Assembly: GCA_017999235.1 (NCBI GenBank)
Contig: JAGOBN010000037.1
Coordinates: 1-12,877, forward strand
Length of the DNA stretch: 12,877 nucleotides
Origin: Anaerolineales bacterium
GTDB taxonomy: Bacteria; Chloroflexota; Anaerolineae; Anaerolineales; UBA6663
Direction: 5' to 3'
Position numbers and translations under genes: made by a program. The notes under the pieces were generated by a model. It did no database searches. It was not told where the DNA came from and worked only from the letters and a program-made list of their open reading frames with translations. Positions 1 to 11,276 of this stretch are shown in pieces (the first letter of the stretch is position 1; each line of letters starts with the position of its first letter).

Positions 1-655
1 CGCCGGCGGCCACATCCCAGGCCTGCAAATTGAGATGGAAGCTGCCATCCAGCCGGCCGGCGGCGATGTAGGCCAGGGTCAGGGCGGCGCTGCCCGGCAG
101 ACGCAGGCTGTGGCCGACGTTGGCCAGACGCGGGGTGAGCACGGCGGCCTGATCGCGTAAGGCGGCCTCGCGCGGCCAGCCGGCGCCCAGGACGGCGGCG
201 CCGATCTCGGCCACCGAGCTGACCGCCAGCCGGCGCGGCCGGCCACGGCCTTGCCGAACGAAGGCGCCCTGGCCGCGTTCGCCATAGAACAGCTCGCGGC
301 GCATAGGGTCGTAGATGACGCCCAGATACGGGGCGCCGGCCTCCGCGACTCCCAGCGAGACGGCAAAACAGGGCAGTTGGCGGGCGTAGTTGGACGTGCC
401 ATCCAGCGGATCGATCACCCACGTGGGGCCAGGCGCGGTCAGGTCCGCCGTCAGCAGACCCTCTTCAGACAGCACGGCATCCTCCGGAAAGGCGGCGTGC
501 AGGTGCTTCAAGATCAGGGTTTGGGCGGCAACGTCGGCGTCGGTCACCAGATTGCGCGGCCCTTTGAGGGAGACGGTGCGGGGGCGGTTGAGCTTGCGGC
601 GCAGGAGGTCGCCGGCCGCCAGCGCGGCTTCAATGGCGGTGGTCAAACGGCTCAT
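1..655 (-). CDS. Inositol monophosphatase family protein (3' end outside window)
   Basis: A Mg2+-dependent sugar/inositol phosphate phosphatase of the IMPase (SuhB-like) superfamily is the likely product. The minus strand from the ATG at 655-653 gives 218 residues before the window edge; the family is usually about 260 aa, so roughly 40-50 C-terminal residues are missing. Both signature motifs are visible: S-E-E-G at residues 63-66, the metal site IDPLDGTSN at 81-89 (Asp82, Asp85), and the second motif WDVAAG at 213-218 (Asp214), which ends exactly at the window edge. The start is chosen because nothing in frame upstream looks coding and the ATG sits 8 nt below a perfect TATAAT. There is no Shine-Dalgarno sequence, so translation is probably leaderless. 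The gene diverges from the SorC-type operon. Its exact substrate (inositol phosphate, a histidinol-phosphate-like compound or another sugar phosphate) cannot be told from the motifs. Confidence 0.9.
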   Translation of the reverse strand, partial: MSRLTTAIEAALAAGDLLRRKLNRPRTVSLKGPRNLVTDADVAAQTLILKHLHAAFPEDAVLSEEGLLTADLTAPGPTWVIDPLDGTSNYARQLPCFAVSLGVAEAGAPYLGVIYDPMRRELFYGERGQGAFVRQGRGRPRRLAVSSVAEIGAAVLGAGWPREAALRDQAAVLTPRLANVGHSLRLPGSAALTLAYIAAGRLDGSFHLNLQAWDVAAG

Positions 656-916: not shown

Positions 917-1918
917 GTGGTTCGGAGATCTTCTAATTCACCTCAACCTGCCCTGACGGGCGAGCGTTTGGAGCTCTTGGCGCGCATCTCGGAGCTGTAT
1001 TACGAGGACCGCCTAACCCAAGAGCAGATCGCGGCGCAAACCGGGTATTCCCGTTCGATGGTGTCGCGCTTCTTGACCGAAGCGCGGGATCAACAGGTGG
1101 TGGAGATCAAGGTCCATCACCCGCTGGAGCGCCGGCGGGACATGGAAGACCTGCTCCAGAACCTGTTGGGGCTCAAAGTGGTGCAGGTGCTGGCGCGGGG
1201 GACATTGAACTACATCCAGATGCTGCGCCGGCTGGGCGTTTTGGCGGCGCGGTTTGTGGAAGACCTGATCTTTGACAACGCCACGATTGGAGTGTCGTGG
1301 GGCGAGGCGATCTCCGAGACGATCACGGCCCTGCGGCCGCGCACCCGGACGGGCATTCACGTTGTCCAGATGATCGGCTCGCTGGGGCCGCCGAACCCGG
1401 AGATTGACGGGCCGGAACTGGCGCGGCGTCTGGCGCGCACGCTGGGCGGCCAGTATTCCACCTTCCCGGTGCCGCTGTTCGTGGACAGCGAGATGACGCG
1501 CCAGATGCTGATGAACGACACGCGCGTGCAGCGGGTGGTGGAGCATTTCAAGGACGTCGATCTGGCGCTGTTGGGCGTCGGCACGGTGGAATCGGAACGC
1601 TCGAGTCTGCTGCGCGGGAACTATCTGGCCGAGGCGCAGCTGCTGGGTTTGCAGCAGGCCGGCGCGGTGGGAGACGTGGCCGTCATCCACTTCGACCTGC
1701 AGGGCCAGGTGGTGGATATCCCGCTAGCCCGGCAGGTGATGGGGATTGACGCGGCCACGCTGCTGGAGCGGCCGCTGCGGGTGGGGGTGGCCGGGGGGCA
1801 GTTCAAGAGCAAGCCGATTTTGGGCGCGAGCCGGGCCGGCTTCATCAACATGTTGATCACGGATGAGGTCGCCGCTTCGGGCGTCCTTCAGTTATTGCGG
1901 GCCGAAGGGCGCGCCTGA
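917..1918 (+). CDS. SorC-family transcriptional regulator
   Basis: This 333-residue protein has the two-domain layout of SorC/DeoR-type regulators such as SorC, CggR, DeoR (B. subtilis) and LsrR. A helix-turn-helix lies at about residues 30-56 (L-T-Q-E-Q-I-A, then S-R-S-M-V-S-R-F-L). A large sugar-binding domain follows at about 80-330, with the family-typical G-V-S-W-G-E-A, L-L-G-V-G-T and, near the end, V-A-G-G-x-x-K plus N-M-L-I-T-D-E. These regulators respond to phosphorylated sugars, so the effector is probably the PTS product or the next intermediate. The GTG at 917 is chosen because GGCGAGG (904-910) sits 6 nt upstream. It is the first gene of the operon: its TGA ends at 1918, 24 bp before the E1 alpha start. 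Whether it activates or represses cannot be read from the sequence. Confidence 0.9.
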   Translation: MVRRSSNSPQPALTGERLELLARISELYYEDRLTQEQIAAQTGYSRSMVSRFLTEARDQQVVEIKVHHPLERRRDMEDLLQNLLGLKVVQVLARGTLNYIQMLRRLGVLAARFVEDLIFDNATIGVSWGEAISETITALRPRTRTGIHVVQMIGSLGPPNPEIDGPELARRLARTLGGQYSTFPVPLFVDSEMTRQMLMNDTRVQRVVEHFKDVDLALLGVGTVESERSSLLRGNYLAEAQLLGLQQAGAVGDVAVIHFDLQGQVVDIPLARQVMGIDAATLLERPLRVGVAGGQFKSKPILGASRAGFINMLITDEVAASGVLQLLRAEGRA

Positions 1919-1931
1919 GTGCATCCTCAGC

Positions 1932-1937
1932 AGGAGG
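1932..1937 (+). promoter_or_regulatory. Ribosome binding site deciding the E1 alpha start
   Basis: A perfect AGGAGG stands 5 nt before the ATG at 1943. An in-frame GTG at 1919 directly after the regulator stop would give an 8-residue longer protein but has no such site, so 1943 is preferred. Confidence 0.85.
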
Positions 1938-1942
1938 CAAGG

Positions 1943-2941
1943 ATGGGTATTTTAGAAAACGGCCAGCCGGCCGCCGCGACGCCGCTGCCAGCGGAATGGA
2001 CTCCGGCGGCGGCGCGCGAGAAACTGGCCCAGATGCTGGTCATCCGCGCGTTTGAGGCGAAGGCCGAAGAGCTGTTTGCGCTGGGGCGCGTGCACGGCAC
2101 CATGCATCTGTCCATCGGCCAGGAAGCCACGGCGGTGGGCGCGGCCAGCGCTTTGCGGCGCGGCGATTACCTGCTCAACCACCATCGCGGCCACGGCCAT
2201 TGTCTGGCCTGGTTCGACAGCGATGTGGACGCGATGATGGCCGAATTCATGGGCAAAGAGACCGGCTACTGCCGCGGGCGGGGCGGCTCGATGCACATCG
2301 CCAACGTGGCCGCCAACAACCTGGGCGCCAACGGCATCGTGGCCGGCGGCGTGCCGCTGGCGGTGGGCGTGGGCCTGAGCATCAAGATGCGCGGCACCGA
2401 CCAAGTGGGCATGGTGAATTTCGGCGACGGCGCCTCCAACGAAGGCGCCTTCCACGAATCCTTGAATATGGCCAGCATCTGGAAGCTGCCCATCATCTAT
2501 CTGTGTGAAAACAACCAGTACGCCATGTCGATGCCGGTGACCAAGGCCATGACCGTGGCCCGGATCAGCGACCGGGCGGTGGCCTACGGGATTCCCGGGG
2601 TCACCGTGGACGGCAATGACCTGCCGGCCGTGTACGCGGCGGTGGGGGCGGCGGCGGCACGGGCGCGCGCCGGCGAGGGGCCGACGCTGCTGGAGGCGGT
2701 CACCTACCGCTGGCGCGGCCACTCCAAGAGCGACAAGCAGGCGTACCGCACGCGGGATGAAGTGAAAGAGTGGCAGCAGCGCGACCCGATCCTGCGCTTC
2801 GCGGCGCTTATCGAACTCAGTGACACCGAGCTGGAGGCCATGCGGCAGGCCGCCAACCAGCGCGTTGAGGCGGCCGTGGCGTTTGCCGAGGCCAGCCCGG
2901 AACCGACGGTCGCGAGCATCCTGGAGGGCGTCTATGCCTAG
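1943..2941 (+). CDS. acoA: Acetoin/pyruvate dehydrogenase-type E1 component, alpha subunit
   Basis: This thiamine-diphosphate-dependent E1 alpha subunit is 332 aa, the usual size for AcoA and short PdhA proteins. The ThDP/Mg2+ motif begins with G-D-G at residues 161-163 and closes with C-E-N-N at 188-191. Earlier, [12 protein letters not shown] matches the E1 alpha N-terminal signature. The W-R-G-H-S-K-S-D stretch near residue 260 is the active-site loop that carries the conserved His-Ser. With the beta subunit it would form a hetero-tetramer that makes hydroxyethyl-ThDP and passes an acetyl group to the E2 lipoyl arm. Its stop overlaps the E1 beta start by 8 bp, indicating translational coupling. 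Pyruvate, acetoin and branched-chain enzymes look alike at this level. The operon context (polyol PTS, DXR-like enzyme) argues for an acyloin substrate, possibly a deoxyketose phosphate. Confidence 0.88.
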
Positions 2942-3974
2942 CGCAGCCGTGGCGGTTGAAACCCTGCCGGTGGCCCCGCCGGCCGGCGGGCGCGAGATCA
3001 CGTATGTGGAAGCCGTGCGCGAGACCCTGCGCCAGGTGATGGCCGCGGACGAGCGCGTCTTTGTCATGGGCGAGGATATCGGCGTGTACGGCGGCGCCTT
3101 CGGCGCCACGGCCGGCCTGCTGCCGGAGTTTGGCGAGCAGCGCGTCATCGACACGCCCATCTCCGAGGCCGCCATCGCCGGCGCCTGCATCGGCGCGGCC
3201 CTGACCGGCATGCGGCCGGTGGGCGAGATCCAGTTCATGGATTTTGTCACCCTGAGCATGGAGCAGCTGGTCCTGCAGGCGGCCAAGATCCGGTTCATGT
3301 TTGGCGGCAAGGCCACCGTGCCGATGGTGCTGCGCATGCCGGGCGGCTCCGGCACCGGCGCGGCCGCCCAGCACTCCGAGAGCCTGGAAAACTGGTTTGT
3401 GCATGTGCCCGGACTGAAAGTGGTGATGCCCAGTAACCCTTACGATGTTAAGGGGTTATTAACTTCAGCCATTTACGACGACAATCCCGTCATCTTTATC
3501 GAGCATAAGCTCCTGTACAAGACCAAAGGCTGTGTGCCTGAGCAGCTGTACACCCTGCCGCTCAGCCAGAGCCACGTGGCGCGGGAAGGCCGGCACCTGA
3601 CGATTGTGGCCACCTCCATGATGGTCAACCGCTCCCTGGAGGCGGCCAAGCAGCTGGCGGCGGAGGGGATCGAGTGCGAGGTGATTGATCCGCGCACGCT
3701 CAACCCGCTGGATGTGGACCCCATCGTGGCCAGCGTCAAGAAGACCGGGCGCGTGCTGATCGTGCATGAGGCGGTGAAGACGGGCGGCTTCGGCGGCGAA
3801 GTGGCCGGCCGGATCGTCGAGAGTGAGGCCTTTGATTACCTGGAGGCGCCCGTGCGCCGGCTGGCTGGATTGGATATCCCCATCCCGTACAACCGCACCC
3901 TGGAAATGAACTCCGTCCCGCAAGTGGACAAGATCGTGGCCGAAGCGCGCCAGTTGGCGAAAGGCGAATTCTAA
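2934..3974 (+). CDS. acoB: Acetoin/pyruvate dehydrogenase-type E1 component, beta subunit
   Basis: This 346-residue E1 beta partner carries the transketolase-like pyrimidine-binding and C-terminal domains. Family landmarks include [13 protein letters not shown], then [11 protein letters not shown] with the Glu that activates ThDP, and [10 protein letters not shown]-terminal features are [10 protein letters not shown] and [13 protein letters not shown]. The ATG at 2934 is chosen because GGAGGG (2923-2928) lies 5 nt upstream and the residues before it are alpha-subunit codons in another frame. It overlaps acoA by 8 bp and shares the A of its TAA with the ATG of acoC. About 20 poorly conserved residues precede the conserved R-E-I-T-Y-V-E-A-V start, slightly longer than many homologues. 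Positions 3431-3540 are noticeably more AT-rich than the rest of the gene, with two adjacent TTA codons. Confidence 0.9.
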
Positions 3975-5296
3975 TGGCCAAGGCCGTCATCATGCCGAAG
4001 TTCGGCTTCACGCAGGAGAGCGCCCAGATCGTGCGCTGGCTGAAAAAGGCCGGCGACGCGGTGGAGCAGGGTGACCCGATCGCGGAAGTGACGACCGACA
4101 AGGTCAACATGGAGGTCGAGGCGCCGGAGTCCGGCATCCTGGACGGCTTGCGCTTCCAAGAAGGCGACACGGTGCCGGTGACCGAGATCATCGCGTATCT
4201 GCGCGCGCCCAATGAGACTTTAGCGGCGAGCGCTCAACCCGCCGGCGCCGCGCCGGCCGCGGCGGTAGCCGCGGCCCCGGCGGCGGCCACTGCGGCAACC
4301 CCCGTAGCCGCCAAGCTAGCGCAAGACCTGGGCGTGGATGTGAGCCAGGTGGCCGGCACCGGCCCGGGCGGACGCGTGACGCGCCGGGATGTGGAAGCGG
4401 CCGCCGCGGCCGCTGGAGCAGCGGGCGGCCGGCCGCGCGCGGTTCCGGCCGCGCGCCGGCTGGCGCGTGAGCTGGGGGTGGACCTGGCGGCCGTGCCCGG
4501 CAGCGGCCCGCACGGGCGGGTGCAGTCAGCGGATGTTAAAGCGGCGGCCGAGAGTGCGGCGGCCAGCGTCCCGGCGGCGGCGCCCGCGGCCAGCCCGGCG
4601 CCGGCCGGCGTCAAGGTCATCCCCCTGGTCGGTATGCGCCGCACCATCGCGACGCGCCTGCAGAAGAGCTTCCAGGACGCGCCGCATATTTTCTTCGACG
4701 CCGAGATCGACGTGACGGCGGCGGAAGCGCTGCGCGCGGCCGCCAACGCGCGCCAGGCCAAAGAGCAGCCCAAACTCAGCCTGACGGTGCTGATCGCCAA
4801 GGCCTGCGCCTGGGCGCTGGGCCGGCACCCCTTGCTGAACAGCTGGCTGGTGGGCGACGAGATCCGGGTGCTGGACGCCGTGAACCTGGGCGTGGCCGTG
4901 GCGCTGGAGGACGGCCTGATCGTGCCGGTCGTCAAAGACGTGGCCCACAAGGGGTTGGCCCAGCTGGCGGTCGAGATCGCGGGCCTGGCCGAGCGGGCGC
5001 GCACCAACCGCCTGCGCCCGGATGACGTGGCCGATGGCACCTTTACGATCAGCAACTTGGGGATGTTTGGGGTGGACCGCTTCACGGCCATCCTTAACCC
5101 CCCGCAGGTGGGCATTCTGGCCGTCAGCCGGGCGCGCTCGCAGTTTGTGCCGGACGCGCACGGCCAGCCGGTGGCGCGGCCGCTGATGACGGTGACCCTC
5201 TCGGCCGACCACCGCGTGGTGGACGGCGCGGTGGCGGCCCGGTTCCTGAAAGACCTGCGGGACGGGCTGGAGCAGCCCAGCCTGCTGCTGGTTTAG
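3974..5296 (+). CDS. acoC: Dihydrolipoamide acyltransferase (E2) with tandem peripheral-subunit-binding domains
   Basis: This 440-residue E2 core would carry acetyl groups from E1 to CoA. Domains in order: one lipoyl domain (1-78) with lipoyl-Lys43 in T-T-D-K-V; an Ala/Pro linker (about 81-108); two peripheral-subunit-binding domains (about 109-142 and 154-190), each with the L-G-V-D...G-x-G-P-x-G-R-V pattern; a second Ala/Pro linker (191-212); and the catalytic domain (213-440). The latter has D-A-P-H near 235-238 and the active-site D-H-R-V-V-D-G at 412-418 (His413). Two E1/E3-binding domains are unusual, since one is typical. The start ATG shares its A with the acoB stop. Family members use acetyl, branched-chain or 2-oxoglutarate-derived acyl groups. 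The AcoA/AcoB context favours acetyl. No E3 lipoamide dehydrogenase gene accompanies it here. Confidence 0.92.
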   Translation: MAKAVIMPKFGFTQESAQIVRWLKKAGDAVEQGDPIAEVTTDKVNMEVEAPESGILDGLRFQEGDTVPVTEIIAYLRAPNETLAASAQPAGAAPAAAVAAAPAAATAATPVAAKLAQDLGVDVSQVAGTGPGGRVTRRDVEAAAAAAGAAGGRPRAVPAARRLARELGVDLAAVPGSGPHGRVQSADVKAAAESAAASVPAAAPAASPAPAGVKVIPLVGMRRTIATRLQKSFQDAPHIFFDAEIDVTAAEALRAAANARQAKEQPKLSLTVLIAKACAWALGRHPLLNSWLVGDEIRVLDAVNLGVAVALEDGLIVPVVKDVAHKGLAQLAVEIAGLAERARTNRLRPDDVADGTFTISNLGMFGVDRFTAILNPPQVGILAVSRARSQFVPDAHGQPVARPLMTVTLSADHRVVDGAVAARFLKDLRDGLEQPSLLLV

Positions 5297-5324
5297 AGCG
5301 CGGCCCGGCAGAGGAGACGACGAC

Positions 5325-5777
5325 ATGGAACTCACCGGCACGACCATTGTTTTGCTGCTGGCGTTCATGTGGGCGTTCCAGTATGGGCTGTCGTTTTGGC
5401 AGATGCGCCGCTATTACAAGCGTCTGGCGGAATTGCGCCGGGAAGGCTTGGTGTGGGTGGGGTTGGCCGGTTCGGCCTGGCGCCGGCGGCAGTACGCGGT
5501 GCTGGTGGTCACCCCGGAACAGCGGATTGTGCGGGCGGAGCAGTTGTCCGGCTGGACGGTTCTGGCCACGCTGAAACCTTTGCCCGGGCTGGAAGGCCGG
5601 CCGGTCAGCGACCTCTTGGATGACACCGTGACCCTGCCGGTGACCAAGAAGCAGCTGGCGGCTTTGCGCGACGCCGTAAAACATATGCAGGCGTACGCGG
5701 CCCGGAAAGCGGCGGAGGCCGCCGACGCGGCGCAGACCGAAAGCGGCGCGCTGCCGGCGTCCACCCCCGCGGCTTAA
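5325..5777 (+). CDS. gutM: GutM/SrlM family protein (glucitol operon activator protein)
   Basis: This 150-residue protein belongs to the GutM family. It has an N-terminal hydrophobic segment (about residues 6-26) ending in Q-M-R-R-Y-Y. A small conserved domain follows with G-L-V-W-V-G-L-A-G-S and Q-Y-A-V-L-V-V, then Q-R-I-V-R-A-E, W-T-V-L-A and L-P-G-L-E-G-R-P-V-S-D-L, matching the layout I recall for E. coli SrlM. The last 35 or so residues are Ala-rich and extend beyond the roughly 120 aa E. coli protein. E. coli GutM activates the glucitol operon, but a membrane-anchored segment suggests a signalling or permease-associated role. It sits directly before the PTS permease genes, as in known gut clusters, 28 bp after acoC, with GAGGAG (5311-5316) 8 nt upstream. 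The usual companion repressor GutR/SrlR is replaced here by a SorC-type protein. Confidence 0.82.
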   Translation: MELTGTTIVLLLAFMWAFQYGLSFWQMRRYYKRLAELRREGLVWVGLAGSAWRRRQYAVLVVTPEQRIVRAEQLSGWTVLATLKPLPGLEGRPVSDLLDDTVTLPVTKKQLAALRDAVKHMQAYAARKAAEAADAAQTESGALPASTPAA

Positions 5778-5882
5778 CCGCCCGCCCGGGACTTTTGAAA
5801 GGAGTGCTTATCGCCGATCGCCCAAGGTGTCACGCGTTTCCACTCGGAGAGTTCAGCTTTTATTTCAGACCCGTTGAAAAAT

Positions 5883-5888
5883 GAGGAG
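5883..5888 (+). promoter_or_regulatory. Ribosome binding site deciding the IIC1 start
   Basis: GAGGAG lies 6 nt before the ATG at 5895. An in-frame TTG at 5874 would add 7 residues but has no ribosome binding site, so the ATG is preferred. The 117 bp gap upstream (5778-5894) is the longest in the operon. I find no convincing promoter or hairpin in it. Confidence 0.75.
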
Positions 5889-5894
5889 TTCGCC

Positions 5895-6437
5895 ATGGAC
5901 TTACTAGTTCAATTGGCCACCGGTTTCATCGGCATCTTCCAAAAAGGTGCTGAATGGTGGTGGGCGGTGTTTGTCGGCATCGTCCCGCTGGTCATCGTGC
6001 TGATGACGGCCTTCAATGCGATCATCGCCTGGATCGGCCAGGAGCGCATCGAAGGCTTCAGCAAGTTCGCGTCCCAGGAAGGCATCCTCTTCCTGCCGTT
6101 CCGCTACCTGCTGCTCCCGATCGTGGCCGTCTTCGTGTTGACCAACCCGATGGCGTACACGATGGGCCGCTTCCTGCCGGAGCGCTACAAGCCGGCCTTC
6201 TATGATGCGGCTGTGTCCTTCGTGCATCCGCCGCTCGGCATTCTGCCGCACGTCAACCCCGGTGAGCTGTTTGTGTGGGCCGGCATCGCCAACGGCGTGC
6301 AGTCCGCTTACGGCAATACGGCGATGGCCGACCTGGCGGTCCGCTATCTGTTGACGGGCATGCTGGTCATCTTGATCCGCGGCATCGTCACCGAGCGCAT
6401 CACCGCCTTCATGTGGAAGAAGCCGGCCGCGGCCTAA
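5895..6437 (+). CDS. srlA: PTS glucitol-family permease, IIC component (SrlA/GutA type)
   Basis: This 180-residue integral membrane protein matches IIC1 of the glucitol/sorbitol PTS family (E. coli SrlA, 187 aa). Shared landmarks are F-I-G-I-F-Q-K-G-A-E near the N terminus, N-P-M-A at 84-87, G-R-F-L-P-E-R-Y-K-P at 91-100 and P-H-V-N-P-G-E-L-F at 118-126. Hydrophobic segments lie at about 22-48, 66-83, 122-142 and 150-163. With the second IIC protein it forms the translocation path for a polyol that is phosphorylated on entry by the IIB protein. It precedes the IIC2 gene by 10 bp. Family membership is clear, but the transported polyol need not be glucitol, because no sorbitol-6-phosphate dehydrogenase accompanies it. 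Confidence 0.93.
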   Translation: MDLLVQLATGFIGIFQKGAEWWWAVFVGIVPLVIVLMTAFNAIIAWIGQERIEGFSKFASQEGILFLPFRYLLLPIVAVFVLTNPMAYTMGRFLPERYKPAFYDAAVSFVHPPLGILPHVNPGELFVWAGIANGVQSAYGNTAMADLAVRYLLTGMLVILIRGIVTERITAFMWKKPAAA

Positions 6438-6447
6438 GGAGGACACC

Positions 6448-6981
6448 ATGCAAGCATTTACTGGTTTCTTGACGCGCTTTGGCCGAGCCATGGGCAGCCT
6501 GGTCGGCACCCTGTATCAAGCGGGGCGTGAGTCCGTCGATCAGGTCTGGAAGAACGTGCTGCCCTTCCTGGCCTTCGTCGCGGTGATCGTCGGTATCATG
6601 AACGGCACGGGCCTGGGGACGCTGATTGCCACGGCGCTCGAGCCGCTGGCCGGCAGCGTTGTCGGCCTGATCGTGCTATCCTTGATCATCGGCCTGCCGG
6701 TGCTCTCGCCCCTGCTGGGGCCGGGCGCCGTCATCGCTCAGATCATCGGCACCTTGCTGGGGACGCTGTTCGCCAACAAGACCCTGCCCCTGTCCGCGGC
6801 GTTGCCGGCCCTGTGGGCCATCAACCCGCAGGTCGGCTGCGACTTCATCCCCGTGGGCCTGGCCCTGGGCGAAGCCGAGCCGGAGACGGTGGAAGTGGGC
6901 GTGCCGGCCGTGCTGTTCTCCCGCTTTATCACCGGCCCCGTGGCCGTGCTGATCGGGTGGGTGGCCGCGCTCGGAATGTAA
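6448..6981 (+). CDS. srlE: PTS glucitol-family permease, second IIC domain as a free-standing protein
   Basis: This 177-residue membrane protein corresponds to the C-terminal half of E. coli SrlE (IIBC, about 319 aa). Matching stretches are L-P-F-L-A-F-V at 38-44, S-P-L-L-G-P-G-A-V-I-A-Q at 87-98, C-D-F-I-P-V-G-L at 131-138 and G-V-P-A-V-L-F-S-R-F near 151-160. Four or so hydrophobic segments are evident. It has its own start: AAGGAGG (6436-6442) ends 5 nt before the ATG. The IIB domain normally fused to its N terminus is encoded separately, downstream at 7065-7448. There is no sign of a recent break, as both pieces have intact starts, stops and ribosome binding sites. A perfect 17 bp hairpin follows the gene. 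Confidence 0.9.
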   Translation: MQAFTGFLTRFGRAMGSLVGTLYQAGRESVDQVWKNVLPFLAFVAVIVGIMNGTGLGTLIATALEPLAGSVVGLIVLSLIIGLPVLSPLLGPGAVIAQIIGTLLGTLFANKTLPLSAALPALWAINPQVGCDFIPVGLALGEAEPETVEVGVPAVLFSRFITGPVAVLIGWVAALGM

Positions 6982-6996
6982 GCTGTTGGTCCGCTT

Positions 6997-7037
6997 TGGT
7001 CGTCAGCCGGGCGCTTTCCCCGCCCGGCTGACGACCA
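6997..7037 (+). promoter_or_regulatory. Perfect 17 bp intra-operon hairpin
   Basis: TGGTCGTCAGCCGGGCG (6997-7013) is the exact reverse complement of 7021-7037, with a 7 nt loop CTTTCCC. It lies between the IIC2 stop (6981) and the IIB start (7065). No T-run follows, so it is not a standard intrinsic terminator. Protection of the upstream mRNA, RNase processing or partial termination are possible roles. Confidence 0.85.
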
Positions 7038-7064
7038 GCCTACCTTACCCAAAGAGGCTTCGAC

Positions 7065-7448
7065 ATGGCTGAAGAAAAGAAGTACAAGAAGGTCCGCATC
7101 AAAAAAGGCCCCAAAGGCTGGGGCGGCCCGCTGGTGGTGGATTGCAAGCCCGGACGCGACCTGATTTACTCCGTGACCGGCGGCGGCATCCATCCGCTGG
7201 CGGCCAAGATCGCCGAACTCACCGGCGGCCGGCCGTTCGATGGCTTCAAATCCAAGGCCGATTTCAGCGAGATCGCGGTAGCCGTTATCGACTGCGGCGG
7301 CACGGCGCGCGTGGGTGTCTACCCGATGAAGAAAGTGCTGACGGTGGATATTTATCCCACCTCGCCCTCCGGGCCGCTGATGCGGTTTATCACCGAAGAA
7401 CTTTTCTGTTCGGGTGTGCGGATCGAAGACCTGGAAGTGTTGCCCTAA
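7065..7448 (+). CDS. srlE: PTS glucitol-family IIB component as a free-standing protein
   Basis: This 127-residue soluble protein matches the N-terminal IIB domain of E. coli SrlE. Landmarks are K-G-x-x-G-W-G-G-P-L at about 14-23, A-V-I-D-C-G-G-T at 73-80 with the likely phosphocysteine Cys77, and S-G-P-L near 106-109. It would take phosphate from the IIA protein and pass it to the incoming polyol bound by the two IIC proteins. The basic N terminus (E-E-K-K-Y-K-K-V-R-I-K-K) is a little longer than the start of SrlE. The ATG at 7065 has AAGAGG (7052-7057) 7 nt upstream. Hairpins flank the gene on both sides. Having IIB as its own gene after IIC2 reverses the usual fused B-C2 order. Confidence 0.92.
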   Translation: MAEEKKYKKVRIKKGPKGWGGPLVVDCKPGRDLIYSVTGGGIHPLAAKIAELTGGRPFDGFKSKADFSEIAVAVIDCGGTARVGVYPMKKVLTVDIYPTSPSGPLMRFITEELFCSGVRIEDLEVLP

Positions 7449-7459
7449 GCCCTCCCCGG

Positions 7460-7489
7460 CCAGGCAAGGGGCTGCGGCCCCTTGTCTGG
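7460..7489 (+). promoter_or_regulatory. 13 bp intra-operon hairpin between IIB and IIA genes
   Basis: CCAGGCAAGGGGC (7460-7472) pairs with GCCCCTTGTCTGG (7477-7489) through 13 base pairs including one G-U, with a TGCG tetraloop. It starts 12 bp after the IIB stop and has no downstream T-run. It resembles the hairpins after IIC2 and IIA in placement but not in sequence. Confidence 0.75.
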
Positions 7490-7498
7490 GCTTCTCTT

Positions 7499-7505
7499 GG
7501 AAAGG
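7499..7505 (+). promoter_or_regulatory. Ribosome binding site deciding the IIA GTG start
   Basis: GGAAAGG lies 6 nt before the GTG at 7512. An earlier in-frame TTG at 7482 falls inside the hairpin arm and adds ten residues unlike the family, so GTG 7512 is preferred. Confidence 0.7.
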
Positions 7506-7511
7506 CAGACC

Positions 7512-7871
7512 GTGATTAAGTACGAAGCCCGCATCACGGCCATCGGGCCGCTGGTCACTGAATTTACGCAGGCCGGCATTCTCGTGCTGTTCGGCCAGAG
7601 CGCGCCCGAGGAAGTGGCCGAGTTCGCGCTTCTGCATGACGGCCAGGTGCTGCACAGCCCGCTGGCCGCCGGCGATCAGCTCTGGCTGGGGGACGAGACC
7701 TTCTCGATCCTGGCGGTAGGCGAAGTCGCGAATACTAATTTGGCCAACCTCGGCCATCTCGTGTTGAAATTTAACGGCCAGACCGCCCCGGAATTGCCGG
7801 GCGACGTATGTGTCGAGGCCCGGCCGCTCCCCGTTGTGACTGTTGGTCTGACGCTGAAAATCGTCGGCTAA
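7512..7871 (+). CDS. srlB: PTS glucitol-family IIA component (SrlB/GutB type)
   Basis: This 119-residue cytoplasmic phosphocarrier is close to E. coli SrlB (123 aa). It opens with Y-E-A-R-I-T-A-I-G, as in the family, and has I-L-V-L-F near 23-27. The likely phospho-acceptor is His42 in E-F-A-L-L-H, aligned with E-F-C-F-I-H (His43) of SrlB. Further matches are L-G-D-E-T-F-S-I-L-A-V-G, then N-L-A-N-L-G-H-L-V-L-K-F, and a Pro-Gly-x-V turn near the end. It accepts phosphate from HPr and hands it to the separate IIB protein. It uses a GTG start. It is followed by a GC-rich hairpin and then the DXR-like oxidoreductase, instead of the usual sorbitol-6-phosphate dehydrogenase. Confidence 0.92.
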   Translation: MIKYEARITAIGPLVTEFTQAGILVLFGQSAPEEVAEFALLHDGQVLHSPLAAGDQLWLGDETFSILAVGEVANTNLANLGHLVLKFNGQTAPELPGDVCVEARPLPVVTVGLTLKIVG

Positions 7872-7879
7872 GCCGGCGC

Positions 7880-7904
7880 CCCGCCGCTGGCCACCGGCGG
7901 CGGG
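7880..7904 (+). promoter_or_regulatory. 11 bp GC-rich intra-operon hairpin after the IIA gene
   Basis: CCCGCCGCTGG (7880-7890) pairs with CCGGCGGCGGG (7894-7904) through 11 pairs including one G-U, around a 3 nt loop. It begins 9 bp after the IIA stop. No T-run follows. It is the third consecutive intergenic hairpin in the PTS part of the operon. Confidence 0.65.
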
Positions 7905-7952
7905 ACCCCCGCCGTTCCTTCCCATCCGCGTGGCTTGCGAAAGTAGGATCCT

Positions 7953-9260
7953 ATGTCTCTTAAAGAACGTCTCCAGGCGCGCGCGACCGCCAGCGGCGCC
8001 CCGATTCGCGTTGGCTTAATCGGCGCGGGCCAGATGGGCACCGGCCTGATCAGCCAGATCGAGCGCATGGTGGGCATGCGCATCACGGCCGTGGCCGACG
8101 TGATCCCCGGCCGCGCGGCCGCGGCCTACGCCGAAGCCAGTGTGCCCGCGGACTTGGTCGTGACCCTGGACGACGACGCGGCCAAAGCCGCCGACGCCAT
8201 CGCCGCCGGCCGGCGCGTGGCCACCACCCAGGCCAACTGGCTGGTGACTATTCCCAACCTCGACATCATCGTGGAATGCACCGGCATCCCCGACATCGGC
8301 GCCCGCGTGTGCGCGGCCGCCATCGCGGCCGGCAAGCACACCGTCAACATGAACGTGGAGACCGACGCCACGGTGGGCTATATCCTGGCCCAGCGCGCCC
8401 GGCAGGCCGGCGTGGTCTACACCCTGGTGGCCGGCGATGAGCCTGGCACCGTCCGCGAGCTGTACGACTTCGCCGACGCCCTGGGTTTTGAGATTGTGAC
8501 CATCGGCAAGGGCAAGAACAACCCGCTGGATCAGACCGCCAACCCGGAGACGATGGGGCCGCGCGCCAAGCAGAACAACATGAGCCCCAAGATGCTGGCC
8601 TCCTTCGTGGACGGCACCAAGACCATGGTGGAGATGACGTCCATGGGCAACGGCATGGGCTACGCGCCGGAAGTCACCGGCGCCCACGGCCCCACCTGCA
8701 CCTGGCGCGACCTGGCCAAGGTCTTTGTACCCAAGGCCGACGGCGGCGTGATGAACGGGCGCGGCGCCGTGGATTACGCCGTGGGCGATGTGGCGCCCGG
8801 CGTCTTCGTCATCATCACCACCGACCAGCCCAAGATCATCACCGACCTGAAGTACCTGCGCCTGAGCGGGCACGGCAACTACTGGTCGCTCTACCGGCCG
8901 TACCACCTGGCCAATCTGGAAACCCCGATCACCGTGGCCAAGGCCGCGCTGGACCAGGAAGTGACCCTGGCCACCACGCAGGCGCCGGTGGCCGAGACCG
9001 TGGCTTACGCCAAACGCGACCTCCAGCCGGGCGAGAAGCTTGATTCGCTGGGCGGCTTCACCATGTACGGCGTCATCGAACGCGCCGGCGTGGCGCGGGC
9101 CGGCGATCAGCTGCCGCTGGGCGTGGCCGTCGGCGCGGTGGTCCAGCACGCGGTGAAGAAGGGCCAGCCGATCCGCTACGCGGACGTGGCCGTGGACGAG
9201 AGCCAGCTGATTGTGCAGCTGCGCCGGGAACAGGACCAATTCTTGGCGAAGGGAGCCTAA
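7953..9260 (+). CDS. DXR-like / homoserine-dehydrogenase-like oxidoreductase with SAF domain (DRL family)
   Basis: This 435-residue NAD(P)-dependent enzyme has a Rossmann motif G-A-G-Q-M-G at residues 24-29 and A-D at the end of the second strand. A homoserine-dehydrogenase-like middle follows (V-E-C-T-G-I-P near 109-115, then A-G-K-H-T-V-N-M-N-V-E-T-D). The C-terminal SAF-type domain spans about residues 350-425 (A-K-R-D-L-Q-P-G-E and a late K-K-G-Q-P-I). This layout is that of the family often labelled predicted homoserine dehydrogenase with SAF domain (COG4091). Brucella DRL, which converts DXP to MEP in place of DXR, belongs to it, and not every member is known to do this. Between a glucitol-type PTS and HPr, and with no SrlD, it most likely oxidises or isomerises the phosphorylated polyol. 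MEP to DXP is the most attractive option. A true homoserine dehydrogenase role is unlikely. TAGGA (7944-7948) precedes the ATG. Confidence 0.82.
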   Translation: MSLKERLQARATASGAPIRVGLIGAGQMGTGLISQIERMVGMRITAVADVIPGRAAAAYAEASVPADLVVTLDDDAAKAADAIAAGRRVATTQANWLVTIPNLDIIVECTGIPDIGARVCAAAIAAGKHTVNMNVETDATVGYILAQRARQAGVVYTLVAGDEPGTVRELYDFADALGFEIVTIGKGKNNPLDQTANPETMGPRAKQNNMSPKMLASFVDGTKTMVEMTSMGNGMGYAPEVTGAHGPTCTWRDLAKVFVPKADGGVMNGRGAVDYAVGDVAPGVFVIITTDQPKIITDLKYLRLSGHGNYWSLYRPYHLANLETPITVAKAALDQEVTLATTQAPVAETVAYAKRDLQPGEKLDSLGGFTMYGVIERAGVARAGDQLPLGVAVGAVVQHAVKKGQPIRYADVAVDESQLIVQLRREQDQFLAKGA

Positions 9261-9261
9261 G

Positions 9262-9552
9262 ATGCCCGCCGTAACCCTGACCATCCAGCACGCCTCCGGA
9301 CTGCACGCGCGGCCGGCCGCCCAGTTTGTCAAGATGGCGGCCTCGTTCCCCTGCGTTATCACGGTGCGGAACCTGGCCAAGGACAAGCCGGCCGTTAACG
9401 CCAAGAGCGTGCTGAGCGTGATCACGCTCGGCGTCAGCCAGGGTAATCAGGTGGAAGTGACGGCCGAGGGCGACCGGGCCGCGGAGGCGCTGACGGCGCT
9501 GCAAGAACTGGTGGCCGCCAACTTCGGCGAAGGCGCGGGGAGCGGGCACTAA
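9262..9552 (+). CDS. ptsH: Phosphocarrier protein HPr
   Basis: This 96-residue HPr has the active-site His15 in G-L-H-A-R-P-A-A, at the canonical position. A Ser in the regulatory region, Ser49 in N-A-K-S-V-L-S-V, aligns with Ser46 of Firmicute HPr, the target of HPr kinase. The loop between the two sites is about three residues longer than in B. subtilis HPr. The ATG at 9262 sits one base after the oxidoreductase stop, with AGGGAG just upstream (9250-9255), and the stop TAA shares its last A with the Enzyme I ATG. HPr takes phosphate from Enzyme I and would supply the IIA protein of the same operon. HPr kinase is not in the window, so regulatory phosphorylation of Ser49 is only a possibility. 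Confidence 0.95.
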   Translation: MPAVTLTIQHASGLHARPAAQFVKMAASFPCVITVRNLAKDKPAVNAKSVLSVITLGVSQGNQVEVTAEGDRAAEALTALQELVAANFGEGAGSGH

Positions 9553-11276
9553 TGAAACAGTATCGCGGCCTGGCCGCCTCCGCCGGGATCGCCATCGGGC
9601 CGGCCTGGGTCTACCGCCCGACGCCGGTGACCGTCGAGCGCCGGGTGCTCGCCGTCGCGGACCTCCCGGCGGAATGGGCGCGCCTGCAGGCCGCGCTCTC
9701 CATGGCGCGCACGCAATTGCAGGCCCTGGAGACCCGCGCCCGGGAGAATATCGGCGCGGACGAGGCCGCCATCTTCGGCGCCCATCAGCTTTTTTTGGAC
9801 GACGAAGAACTGCTGGGCAGCTTGAGCGGGCTGGTGAAAGACCAGCGCTTCAACGCCGAGGCCGCCGTCTACGACGCTTTTGAGCACTACGCGCACGCGC
9901 TGGAAAGCCTGGAAGAGGCCTACTTCAAGGCGCGCGCCGCCGACGTGCGGGATGTGCGCCGGCGCGTGCTGCGCTGTCTGATCGGCGCGGCCGAGGCCGA
10001 GACCGCGCTCACCCAGCCGGCGGTGATCTTTGCCGATGACCTGACGCCTTCGGACACGGTGGCCTTCGACAAGGATAAACTCCTGGGCCTGTGCACCATC
10101 AAGGGCGGCCCGACCTCGCACACCGCCATCCTGGCGCGCGGGCTGGGCCTGCCGGCCGTGGTCTCCGCCCCCTTCACCCTGGCCGATGTGGACGCCAACA
10201 TCCTGGTCATCCTGGACGGGACGACCGGCGCCGTCACCATCGGCCCCACCCTGACCGAGCTGGACCGGGCGCGCAAACGCCAGGCGGACTGGCAGGCCAC
10301 GCGGGCCGAGCAGCTCTCGGCCGCGCACGCGCCGGCGGCCACGCTGGACGGCCACGCGGTGGAAGTGGTGGCCAATATCGGCAGCGCCGCTGACGCCCAG
10401 CAGGCGCTGGAGCAGGGCGCCGAGGGCGTGGGCCTGTTCCGTACCGAGTTCCTGTATCTGGACCGTGACACGATGCCGACCGAGGCCGAGCAGGCGGCCA
10501 CGTATCGTGAGATTTTCCAAGTCATGGGCGGCCGGCCGCTGGTGGTGCGGACGCTGGATATCGGCGGCGACAAGGCCGTGCCGTATCTGGGTTTGCAGCA
10601 GGAGCCCAATCCCTTCCTGGGCTGGCGCGCCATCCGCATGATCCGCGAGCGCCCGGACATCCTGGAAGGCCAGCTGCGCGCCCTGCTGACCGCCGGCGCC
10701 GAGACCGATGCCGATCTGCGGATCATGCTGCCGATGGTCTCCAGCCTGGGCGAACTGACCCGCGCGCGGGAGATCTTGACGCAGGCCCAGGCCAGCCTGG
10801 CGGCCGAAGGCCGGCCCCTGCCCAAGCGCCTGCAGTTTGGCATCATGATCGAGGTGCCGTCGGCGGCGCTGCTGGCCGACCACCTGGCCCAGCACGTGGA
10901 CTTCTTCAGCATCGGCACCAACGACCTGACACAGTACACGCTGGCCGTGGACCGCACCAACGAGCGCGTGACCAAGCTGGCCACGCCTTACCACCCGGCG
11001 GTGCTGCGCCTGATCAAGCTGACCATCGACGCCGCGCACGCGCACGGCAAGTGGGTGGGGCTGTGCGGCGAGCTGGCCGGCGATGAAATGGCCGTCCCCT
11101 TGCTTTTGGGGATGGGGCTGGATGAGTTCAGCATGGCGCCGGCCTCCGTCCCGCCCGTCAAAGCCGCCATCCGCCAGTGGACGCTGCCGGTCTGCCGGGC
11201 GGTGGCCGCGCATGCCCTGGCGCAGCCGCAGGCCATCGAAGTGCTGGATTATCTGCGGGGTCTGACGCCGGCGTAG
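9552..11276 (+). CDS. ptsI: PTS Enzyme I (phosphoenolpyruvate-protein phosphotransferase)
   Basis: This 574-residue Enzyme I is full length for the family. The N-terminal HPr-binding and phospho-His domains lead to the active-site His190 in G-G-P-T-S-H-T-A-I-L-A-R-G (E. coli His189). The C-terminal PEP-binding barrel shows G-L-F-R-T-E-F-L, then V-R-T-L-D-I-G-G-D-K, I-M-I-E-V-P-S, the I-G-T-N-D-L-T-Q-Y signature, and the catalytic Cys505 in G-L-C-G-E-L-A-G-D. It uses PEP to phosphorylate HPr. Its start overlaps the ptsH stop by one base, so the two are translationally coupled. It is the last gene of the operon and is followed within 20 bp by a strong terminator. A ptsHI pair inside a substrate operon makes the transport system self-sufficient. 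Confidence 0.97.
   Translation: MKQYRGLAASAGIAIGPAWVYRPTPVTVERRVLAVADLPAEWARLQAALSMARTQLQALETRARENIGADEAAIFGAHQLFLDDEELLGSLSGLVKDQRFNAEAAVYDAFEHYAHALESLEEAYFKARAADVRDVRRRVLRCLIGAAEAETALTQPAVIFADDLTPSDTVAFDKDKLLGLCTIKGGPTSHTAILARGLGLPAVVSAPFTLADVDANILVILDGTTGAVTIGPTLTELDRARKRQADWQATRAEQLSAAHAPAATLDGHAVEVVANIGSAADAQQALEQGAEGVGLFRTEFLYLDRDTMPTEAEQAATYREIFQVMGGRPLVVRTLDIGGDKAVPYLGLQQEPNPFLGWRAIRMIRERPDILEGQLRALLTAGAETDADLRIMLPMVSSLGELTRAREILTQAQASLAAEGRPLPKRLQFGIMIEVPSAALLADHLAQHVDFFSIGTNDLTQYTLAVDRTNERVTKLATPYHPAVLRLIKLTIDAAHAHGKWVGLCGELAGDEMAVPLLLGMGLDEFSMAPASVPPVKAAIRQWTLPVCRAVAAHALAQPQAIEVLDYLRGLTPA

Follow-up and report, generated by a model that had tools for sequence, protein, structure and literature searches.

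A candidate operon for 2-C-methylerythritol catabolism, with a DXR-II type oxidoreductase and a distinct E1, in an Anaerolineales contig

Gene Organization of the Window

The window, i.e., the whole stretch analyzed here, is positions 1 to 12,877 of contig JAGOBN010000037.1 from an Anaerolineales bacterium (assembly GCA_017999235.1). By Pfam and NCBIfam search of its open reading frames (ORFs), positions 917-11276 were recognized as one operon with all genes on the + strand, in the order sorC-E1alpha-E1beta-E2-gutM-srlA-IIC2-IIB-IIA-DRL-HPr-EI. The operon combines a thiamine diphosphate (ThDP)-dependent E1-E2 pair, a glucitol-family phosphotransferase system (PTS), and DRL, an oxidoreductase of the DXR-II type. 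With a probability of about 0.7, it is proposed to serve the catabolism of 2-C-methyl-D-erythritol or a very similar compound, which would be converted to 2-C-methyl-D-erythritol 4-phosphate (MEP), then to 1-deoxy-D-xylulose 5-phosphate (DXP), and finally to acetyl-CoA and glyceraldehyde 3-phosphate.

A previous sequence-only reading of the window had listed these genes and claimed that SrlD is absent. All the named genes were found in order on the + strand, and no SrlD-type or sorbitol-6-phosphate dehydrogenase was found among the window genes scanned. The genes are as follows.

917-1918, +, SorC/DeoR-type sugar-phosphate-responsive regulator, likely the operon regulator (PF04198, E 1.4e-57; sorC cluster in 53/81 loci)
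1943-2941 (ORF from 1919), +, E1 alpha of a ThDP-dependent dehydrogenase complex, DRL-linked clade with HGTxH and GHS(K/R)SD signature (PF00676, E 4.2e-87; clade of 51 rows, support 99/94)
2934-3974 (mechanical ORF from 2820), +, E1 beta (PF02779, PF02780)
3974-5296, +, E2 lipoyl acyltransferase (PF00198, PF02817, and PF00364, i.e., catalytic, E3-binding, and lipoyl domains)
5325-5777, +, GutM (PF06923, E 2.5e-19)
5895-6437, +, glucitol-family PTS IIC, SrlA (PF03608, E 9.6e-67; NF049923 above cut-off)
6448-6981, +, glucitol-family PTS, IIC2 half of SrlE as a separate gene (PF07663, E 8.5e-42)
7065-7448, +, glucitol-family PTS, IIB half of SrlE as a separate gene (PF03612, E 2.2e-46)
7482-7871, +, glucitol-family PTS IIA, SrlB, probable start 7512 (PF03829, E 8.9e-34)
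7953-9260, +, DRL, DXR-II type oxidoreductase-isomerase, proposed to convert MEP to DXP (PF21135, DRL_cat, E 1.5e-60, and SAF; 3UPL, E 3.1e-99)
9262-9552, +, HPr (PF00381, E 1.4e-27)
9552-11276, +, PTS enzyme I, EI (PF02896, E 4e-119; also PF05524 and PF00391)

The likely starts are 1943 for E1alpha, 2934 for E1beta, 5895 for SrlA, and 7512 for IIA. The E1beta start overlaps the E1alpha stop, and the E2 start overlaps the E1beta stop. The IIC, IIB, IIC2, and IIA domains of a glucitol-family PTS are all present. SrlE is split at 6448-7448, with the IIC2 half before the IIB half; in Bacilli loci, e.g., L060, it is one longer gene.

DXR-II Type Oxidoreductase

NAD-binding, DRL_cat, and SAF domains were recognized in the window DRL, and its residues 5-432 align over the full length with the Brucella enzyme (3UPL, E 3.1e-99). 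The closest named protein was from an Anaerolineales metagenome-assembled genome (MAG) of Chloroflexota, with 91% identity. According to PMC3847144, the family splits into DXR-II and the clades DLO1 and DLO2, neither of them characterised. K191, K193, and T229 anchor fosmidomycin, R320 is placed at the dimer interface (Brucella numbers), and T229 and R320 distinguish DXR-II from DLO1/DLO2.

The Brucella residue was kept at 11/11 DXR-II positions checked, and K186, K188, T224, and R315 (window numbers) are conserved. Relatives of the window DRL were collected from genome contigs, and the best 80 of 402 gave 81 loci together with the window. G121, K191, K193, T229, and R320 (Brucella numbers) were invariant in all 81 aligned loci, the window included. 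E174 was Glu in 75/81 loci, F178 was Phe in 77/81, and H250 was His in 66/81 and Tyr, Arg, or Phe in the remaining 15. Five DLO-type rows had Ile at the T229 position and Thr at the R320 position. Because the DXR-II residues are kept in the window gene, while the DLO-type rows differ at T229 and R320, the gene is, judged by its residues, a DXR-II. The DRL-type oxidoreductase that the sequence-only reading had named is thus confirmed at residue level. Two DLO-type relatives, L105 and L112, lie within rfbF/rfbC cytidine diphosphate (CDP)-sugar clusters, which suggests a sugar-nucleotide role for that sister group.

The end of strand beta-2 was compared in 104 rows, one of which was unreadable. 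Asp or Glu was found in all 98 readable DXR-II-type rows and Asn in the five DLO-type rows, and Brucella DRL has Arg. By the usual Rossmann rule, an acidic residue at this point speaks for NAD+. The acidic residue therefore suggests NAD+ rather than NADP+ as the DRL cofactor, as expected of a degradative enzyme; the earlier reading had left the two open. The acidic end was just as frequent in DXR-II-type rows without E1, where linkage to E1 was set by hand from maps and L004, L067, L073, and L076 were counted as linked (E2/E3 near the contig or locus edge).

Glucitol-Family PTS Loci

PTS loci were also sampled independently of DRL, starting from the glucitol IIC family in 150 genomes of the order of G031. 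This gave 14 places in 13 genomes, i.e., 12 newly fetched loci and L061 and L069 from the DRL set. Eight of them have DRL and six do not. E1 stands beside the PTS in 7/8 loci with DRL (absent in L172) versus 0/6 without DRL (Fisher p 0.0047). Sorbitol-6-phosphate dehydrogenase was over the curated cut-off in all six DRL-free loci, and no neighbour in the eight DRL loci was labelled as this enzyme, as judged from labels only, with the family model not run. Because the DRL/E1 loci and the SrlD loci split across the 14, the glucitol-family PTS has two separate partners, i.e., SrlD, or DRL with E1-E2.

The window operon could be considered an ordinary sorbitol operon whose dehydrogenase was replaced by DRL. 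GutM and the PTS subunits (IIC, IIB/IIC2, and IIA) are of the glucitol family, as in the srl/gut operon. The window operon differs from it by having DRL and E1-E2 instead of SrlD, and by its separate IIB and IIC2 genes. The sorbitol explanation was rejected by the split of the 14 loci, in which DRL (with neighbours judged by label) and sorbitol-6-phosphate dehydrogenase are separate and E1 occurs only beside DRL, and its probability is negligible.

Conservation of the Operon

Neighbours in the 81 loci were taken from mechanical ORFs and clustering, with only cluster representatives checked by Pfam/NCBIfam, and many contigs are short. On the PTS side, srlB was found in 64 loci, IIC2 in 60, srlA in 58, gutM in 55, IIB in 44, HPr in 39, and EI in 33. 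Of the other genes, sorC was found in 53 loci, E2 in 41, E1alpha in 37 (and three fused E1), E1beta in 35, and E3 (dihydrolipoamide dehydrogenase) in 16. When the count was confined to the 48 loci where DRL is flanked by 8 kb or more on each side, glucitol-PTS genes were present in 40 and E1 in 30; all 30 loci with E1 also have the glucitol-PTS, and 8/48 have neither. Because of these frequencies, the arrangement is not one of chance. The co-occurrence of DRL, glucitol PTS, and E1, which the sequence-only reading had put forward as a check, holds for most loci and not for all.

In eight Bacilli loci (L061, L063, L065, L068, L070, L071, L075, and L080), the genes gutM-srlA-srlE-srlB-DRL-E1alpha-E1beta-E2-E3 run without interruption. 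At L067, L073, and L079 and on a Priestia aryabhattai plasmid, a major facilitator superfamily (MFS) transporter and an FGGY kinase stand by DRL, and no PTS was seen.

Twelve plasmid regions were chosen by hand from 40 listed of 111 records, and 8/12 have DRL and E1-E2 in one cluster. On plasmids of Alphaproteobacteria, DRL-E1alpha-E1beta-E2 was found together with a glucitol PTS and EI (L103, L106, and L110), together with ATP-binding cassette (ABC) transporters, sugar kinase, and E3 (L107-L109), or next to an ABC transporter of the amino-acid type (L104). The other four regions are those of Listeria innocua (PTS), Phyllobacterium (ABC only), and Deinococcus and Paracoccus (DLO-type genes in CDP-sugar clusters). 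DRL with E1 was found in five groups, i.e., Chloroflexota, Bacillota, Spirochaetota, Actinomycetota, and Alphaproteobacteria. The uptake part is interchangeable (PTS, MFS with FGGY kinase, or ABC with sugar kinase), and DRL-E1-E2 is constant.

Some further genes were seen at these loci. A lipoyl synthase gene ends the Agrobacterium/Sinorhizobium DRL-E1-E2-E3 operons (L108:13300-14274 and L109:13220-14188). Near the Rhizobium DRL-E1-E2 operon, thiC, an FAD-dependent oxidoreductase gene, thiS, and a thiazole synthase gene were found (L103:15786-19281); DXP is a thiazole precursor. In the 9.3-kb Hakubella contig L062, sorC-DRL-E1alpha-E1beta-E2 is present and no PTS gene was recognised.

E1 of the Dehydrogenase Complex

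For the E1alpha tree, 82 of 96 matches were used, after removal of 11 duplicates and of L082, L086, and L101. One clade with support 99/94 comprised 47 DRL-linked rows and four others, apart from Enterococcus AcoA, Sinorhizobium meliloti PdhA, and the remaining paralogs. The four others are a Clostridioides difficile record and other places in the DRL-carrying genomes G015, G024, and G031. The window E1alpha belongs to this clade and stands outside the four-row group with Enterococcus AcoA, a context-supported AcoA. The Aco-type E1 claimed by the earlier reading was therefore not upheld.

The clade has its own active-site signature. Position 270 is basic in 51/51 clade members (Lys in 48 and Arg in three) and in 0/31 sequences outside; it is Glu in Enterococcus AcoA and Met in S. 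meliloti PdhA. GT at 60-61 and Ser at 271 were found in 51/51 and His at 59 in 50/51. Such residues were sought in E1alpha only, as outgroup rows for an E1beta comparison were too few. Position 270 aligns with the Met of the HSMSD loop of human pyruvate dehydrogenase (PDH), which we take to be the phosphorylation loop lining the active-site channel. A basic residue here would suit a phosphorylated substrate.

The E1-E2 pair might be an ordinary pyruvate or acetoin dehydrogenase that only shares regulation with the PTS, e.g., burning the pyruvate made by it. The best named-model and solved-structure matches of the window E1 are PDH E1, and public records name some such genes PDH or acetoin dehydrogenase. 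The window E1alpha scored 354.2 bits with TIGR03182, the NCBIfam PDH E1alpha equivalog, below the cut-off of 393.85. Against an ordinary dehydrogenase stand the separate clade with its signature, the lack of E1 in the six sorbitol-type glucitol-PTS loci, and the fact that E1-E2 also travels with non-PTS uptake systems. For E1alpha this candidate was rejected by the tree and the signature, and for the pair as a whole it is highly improbable.

Acetoin dehydrogenase converts an acyloin to acetyl-CoA and an aldehyde, and the window complex, with the same E1 alpha/beta-E2(-E3) layout as AcoABC(L), may by analogy perform such a cleavage. It differs from AcoABC by its separate E1alpha clade and by Lys or Arg at 270 versus Glu in Enterococcus AcoA. 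The Enterococcus aco cluster has a sigma-54 regulator, whereas the window operon has SorC. In E. coli, PDH E1 is a single chain, unlike the alpha/beta E1. PMC3424233 reports that PDH can make 1-deoxy-D-xylulose out of pyruvate plus glyceraldehyde, and that DXP is raised in aceE mutants of E. coli; E1 enzymes can therefore handle that C-C bond. There the bond is the same, but it is formed and not cleaved, and the suppressors are laboratory mutants.

In tblastn of the window E1alpha against plasmids, with the list sampled at even steps, records of Pseudoroseomonas, Rhizobium, Sinorhizobium, and Aminobacter came first, and five of the first six rows adjoin a DRL match. The C. difficile record (L157, L158), labelled as a plasmid, carries the clade E1 with E2, E3, a sigma-54 regulator, a PTS (IIA, IIB, IIC), class II aldolase, and lipoate ligase. 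IspD and ispF genes follow, and no DRL is annotated there.

Isoprenoid Pathway Genes in Carrier Genomes

Pathway genes were scored in 49 carrier genomes of the 80 loci, mainly those with long flanks. Over cut-off, IspH was found in 21 genomes, DXR-I in 17, DXS in 16, and IspD in 15. In 28/49 carriers no IspH, DXR-I, or DXS was over cut-off, and HMG-CoA reductase was present in all 28. Mevalonate synthesis is read here from HMG-CoA reductase and not from HMG-CoA synthase (PF08540), which was over cut-off in only 12/49 carriers. The 28 IspH-free carriers all have glucitol-PTS genes at the locus, and 23 of them have E1.

DRL could instead serve isoprenoid supply, i.e., the PTS would bring in MEP for IspD, or DRL would be the DXP reductoisomerase of the host. 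Two observations favor this: an ispD gene within the Ktedonobacteria operon, described below, and the five Acidimicrobiia-type DRL genomes, all of which have IspG and IspH. In the three of these genomes tested, neither DXS (TIGR00204) nor DXR-I was over cut-off. PF13292 gave only partial matches in all five, roughly 70 residues long and scoring no more than 30 bits, over its low cut-off, and likewise in 13/14 control genomes. In these MAGs, methylerythritol import possibly feeds isoprenoid synthesis. DXR-II can hardly serve MEP-pathway synthesis in the 28 carriers, because they have no IspH or DXR-I over cut-off and have HMG-CoA reductase. DXR-I is also present in 17/21 carriers with IspH, and E1-E2 would be left unexplained. 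For more than half of the tested carriers, isoprenoid synthesis was thus rejected as the main DRL function, and salvage or synthesis is a very improbable account of the operon. In the Hakubella genome of L062, IspH is present, and no DXR-I or DXS was over cut-off.

The likeness to Brucella DXR-II (3UPL/3UPY), an alternative reductoisomerase of the MEP pathway, consists of full-length homology and the same substrate-anchor residues. The differences are the place of the window DRL in a predicted uptake and cleavage operon, its acidic beta-2 end versus Arg, and the lack of IspH in 28/49 hosts tested.

A DRL search in 82 genomes of the order of G028 (the Chloroflexota MAG of L057) found the closest DRL in G056, which we take to be Chloroflexus aurantiacus J-10-fl. 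Its locus L163 has a gene order identical to the window, gene for gene, from sorC through EI. HMG-CoA reductase is present in G056 and IspH is not. The genome has two further DRL-family members (41% and 38% identity), which bear on the matter of which gene was tested, and the L163 DRL is presumably the published C. aurantiacus DXR-II. According to PMC3847144, the DXR-II of C. aurantiacus J-10-fl rescued dxr-deficient E. coli, i.e., it converted DXP to MEP in complementation, and the species is classed as mevalonate-only. The same text reports DXR-II activity from bacteria without the MEP pathway (C. aurantiacus and Finegoldia magna) and leaves its purpose there unexplained.

In 4/4 Ktedonobacteria loci (L045, L047, L055, and L058), the first gene of the PTS-DRL operon is an ispD that scores above the curated cut-off, and these carriers have another ispD over cut-off elsewhere in the genome. 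Imported MEP might also be routed to isoprenoids there through the second ispD. L039 and L050 carry an ispD-family gene immediately upstream of E1alpha and on its strand; that of L050 scored 158.9 bits, below the cut-off of 181.3.

Proposed Pathway

From these results, we infer the following course. The branched tetritol would enter through the glucitol-family PTS, which has an HPr and an EI of its own, and arrive as its 4-phosphate, MEP. DRL would convert MEP to DXP in an NAD+-linked reaction. The dedicated E1-E2, with E3 from elsewhere in the genome, would cleave DXP between C2 and C3. Glyceraldehyde 3-phosphate would be freed, and the acetyl group would pass via lipoamide to CoA. SorC would sense a phosphorylated intermediate. 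This catabolic pathway is preferred because it gives each core gene a task and accounts for the presence of DXR-II in organisms with the mevalonate route.

Several observations weigh against it. No E3 was found among the window genes, so the earlier claim that no step lacks an enzyme is true only with an E3 encoded elsewhere. The activity published for DXR-II runs in the direction of synthesis, and the DXP/MEP equilibrium favours MEP. E1 was not seen in 18/48 long-flank loci, although L067, L073, and L076 have E2/E3 at the edge. The Listeria innocua stretch carries SorC-DRL-PTS, and no E1 is annotated there. The five Acidimicrobiia-type loci (L046, L048, L052, L053, and L054) combine DRL with a different PTS (PF02378/PTS_IIB/EIIA_2) and Mannitol_dh, without E1. 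Conversely, copies of the E1 clade occur in stretches without DRL (L157, L159, L160, and L161). Genes for zinc-dependent alcohol dehydrogenase and a GlpD-like protein flank seven Bacilli operons (L061, L063, L065, L068, L071, L075, and L080). In 25 loci, DRL is accompanied by a class II aldolase family protein, for which the scheme has no task. In L042, L044, L051, and L074, the ispD near DRL is accompanied by ispF and is perhaps a housekeeping gene.

The main rival for the substrate is a closely related branched or deoxy polyol, e.g., a different 2-C-methyl tetritol, a deoxy-alditol, or a branched polyol like apiitol. By the same logic, DRL would make the matching ketose phosphate, E1 would split it, and activity on DXP/MEP would be promiscuity. 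The wide variation of kinase and transporter types fits this, as do the E1-clade copies in other loci, e.g., L159 with two FGGY-like kinase genes, and the publication of DXR-II activity in the synthetic direction only. On the other side, the DXR-II anchor residues are fixed in 81/81 loci, and ispD, first in all four Ktedonobacteria operons and upstream of E1alpha in L039 and L050, points to MEP itself. Another compound is rather unlikely, though it is the most probable of the rivals weighed here.

The sequence-only interpretation is partly supported. The methylerythritol pathway gained from the DXR-II identity, the matching operon in the probable C. aurantiacus genome, the dedicated E1, the carriers free of IspH and DXR-I, and the ispD-headed operons; it lost in that some relatives have no E1 or have another dehydrogenase nearby. 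By title and beginning of abstract, no paper on methylerythritol catabolism or on DXR-II in PTS operons was found among those listed from open-licence PMC, and one cloud-water paper names methyltetrols in its references only. It seems somewhat probable, on balance, that the pathway is new to the literature searched, spans at least five phyla, and includes a new DXP-cleaving complex, and that DXR-II is primarily an NAD+-linked catabolic enzyme whose isoprenoid role in Brucella and its relatives was a later recruitment with a change of cofactor.

A degradative role, if true, has meaning beyond this operon. It would explain why DXR-II is kept by microbes without MEP-pathway synthesis, and it would call for caution against taking DXR-II genes as proof of isoprenoid synthesis. 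It would also give E1-E2-E3 complexes a new class of substrate and identify bacteria as a sink for 2-methyltetrols, counted in atmospheric papers among the products of isoprene oxidation.

Other Observations

On the left, the operon is bordered by a truncated inositol-phosphatase-family gene (2-655, minus strand, divergent from the operon; family by neighbour cluster). The cluster of this gene also adjoins DRL in the Acidimicrobiia-type operons, where EI stands beside DRL as well (Pfam on L054). On the right, cysE/cysK-like genes lie on the minus strand. No Rfam match at the gathering threshold was found in the window, and promoter- and terminator-like sites were in no excess over shuffles; one promoter-like site is placed at 810-838, immediately upstream of SorC.

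A class II aldolase gene follows DRL in many Anaerolineae operons, e.g., L027:11268-12002 and L018:1647-2288 (by cluster, with Pfam on one). A galactitol-type PTS gene (EIIC-GAT cluster, with Pfam on L018) was found near DRL in L009, L017, L018, L032, L043, L047, L058, L069, and L071, and perhaps imports a related compound, e.g., 1-deoxyxylulose.

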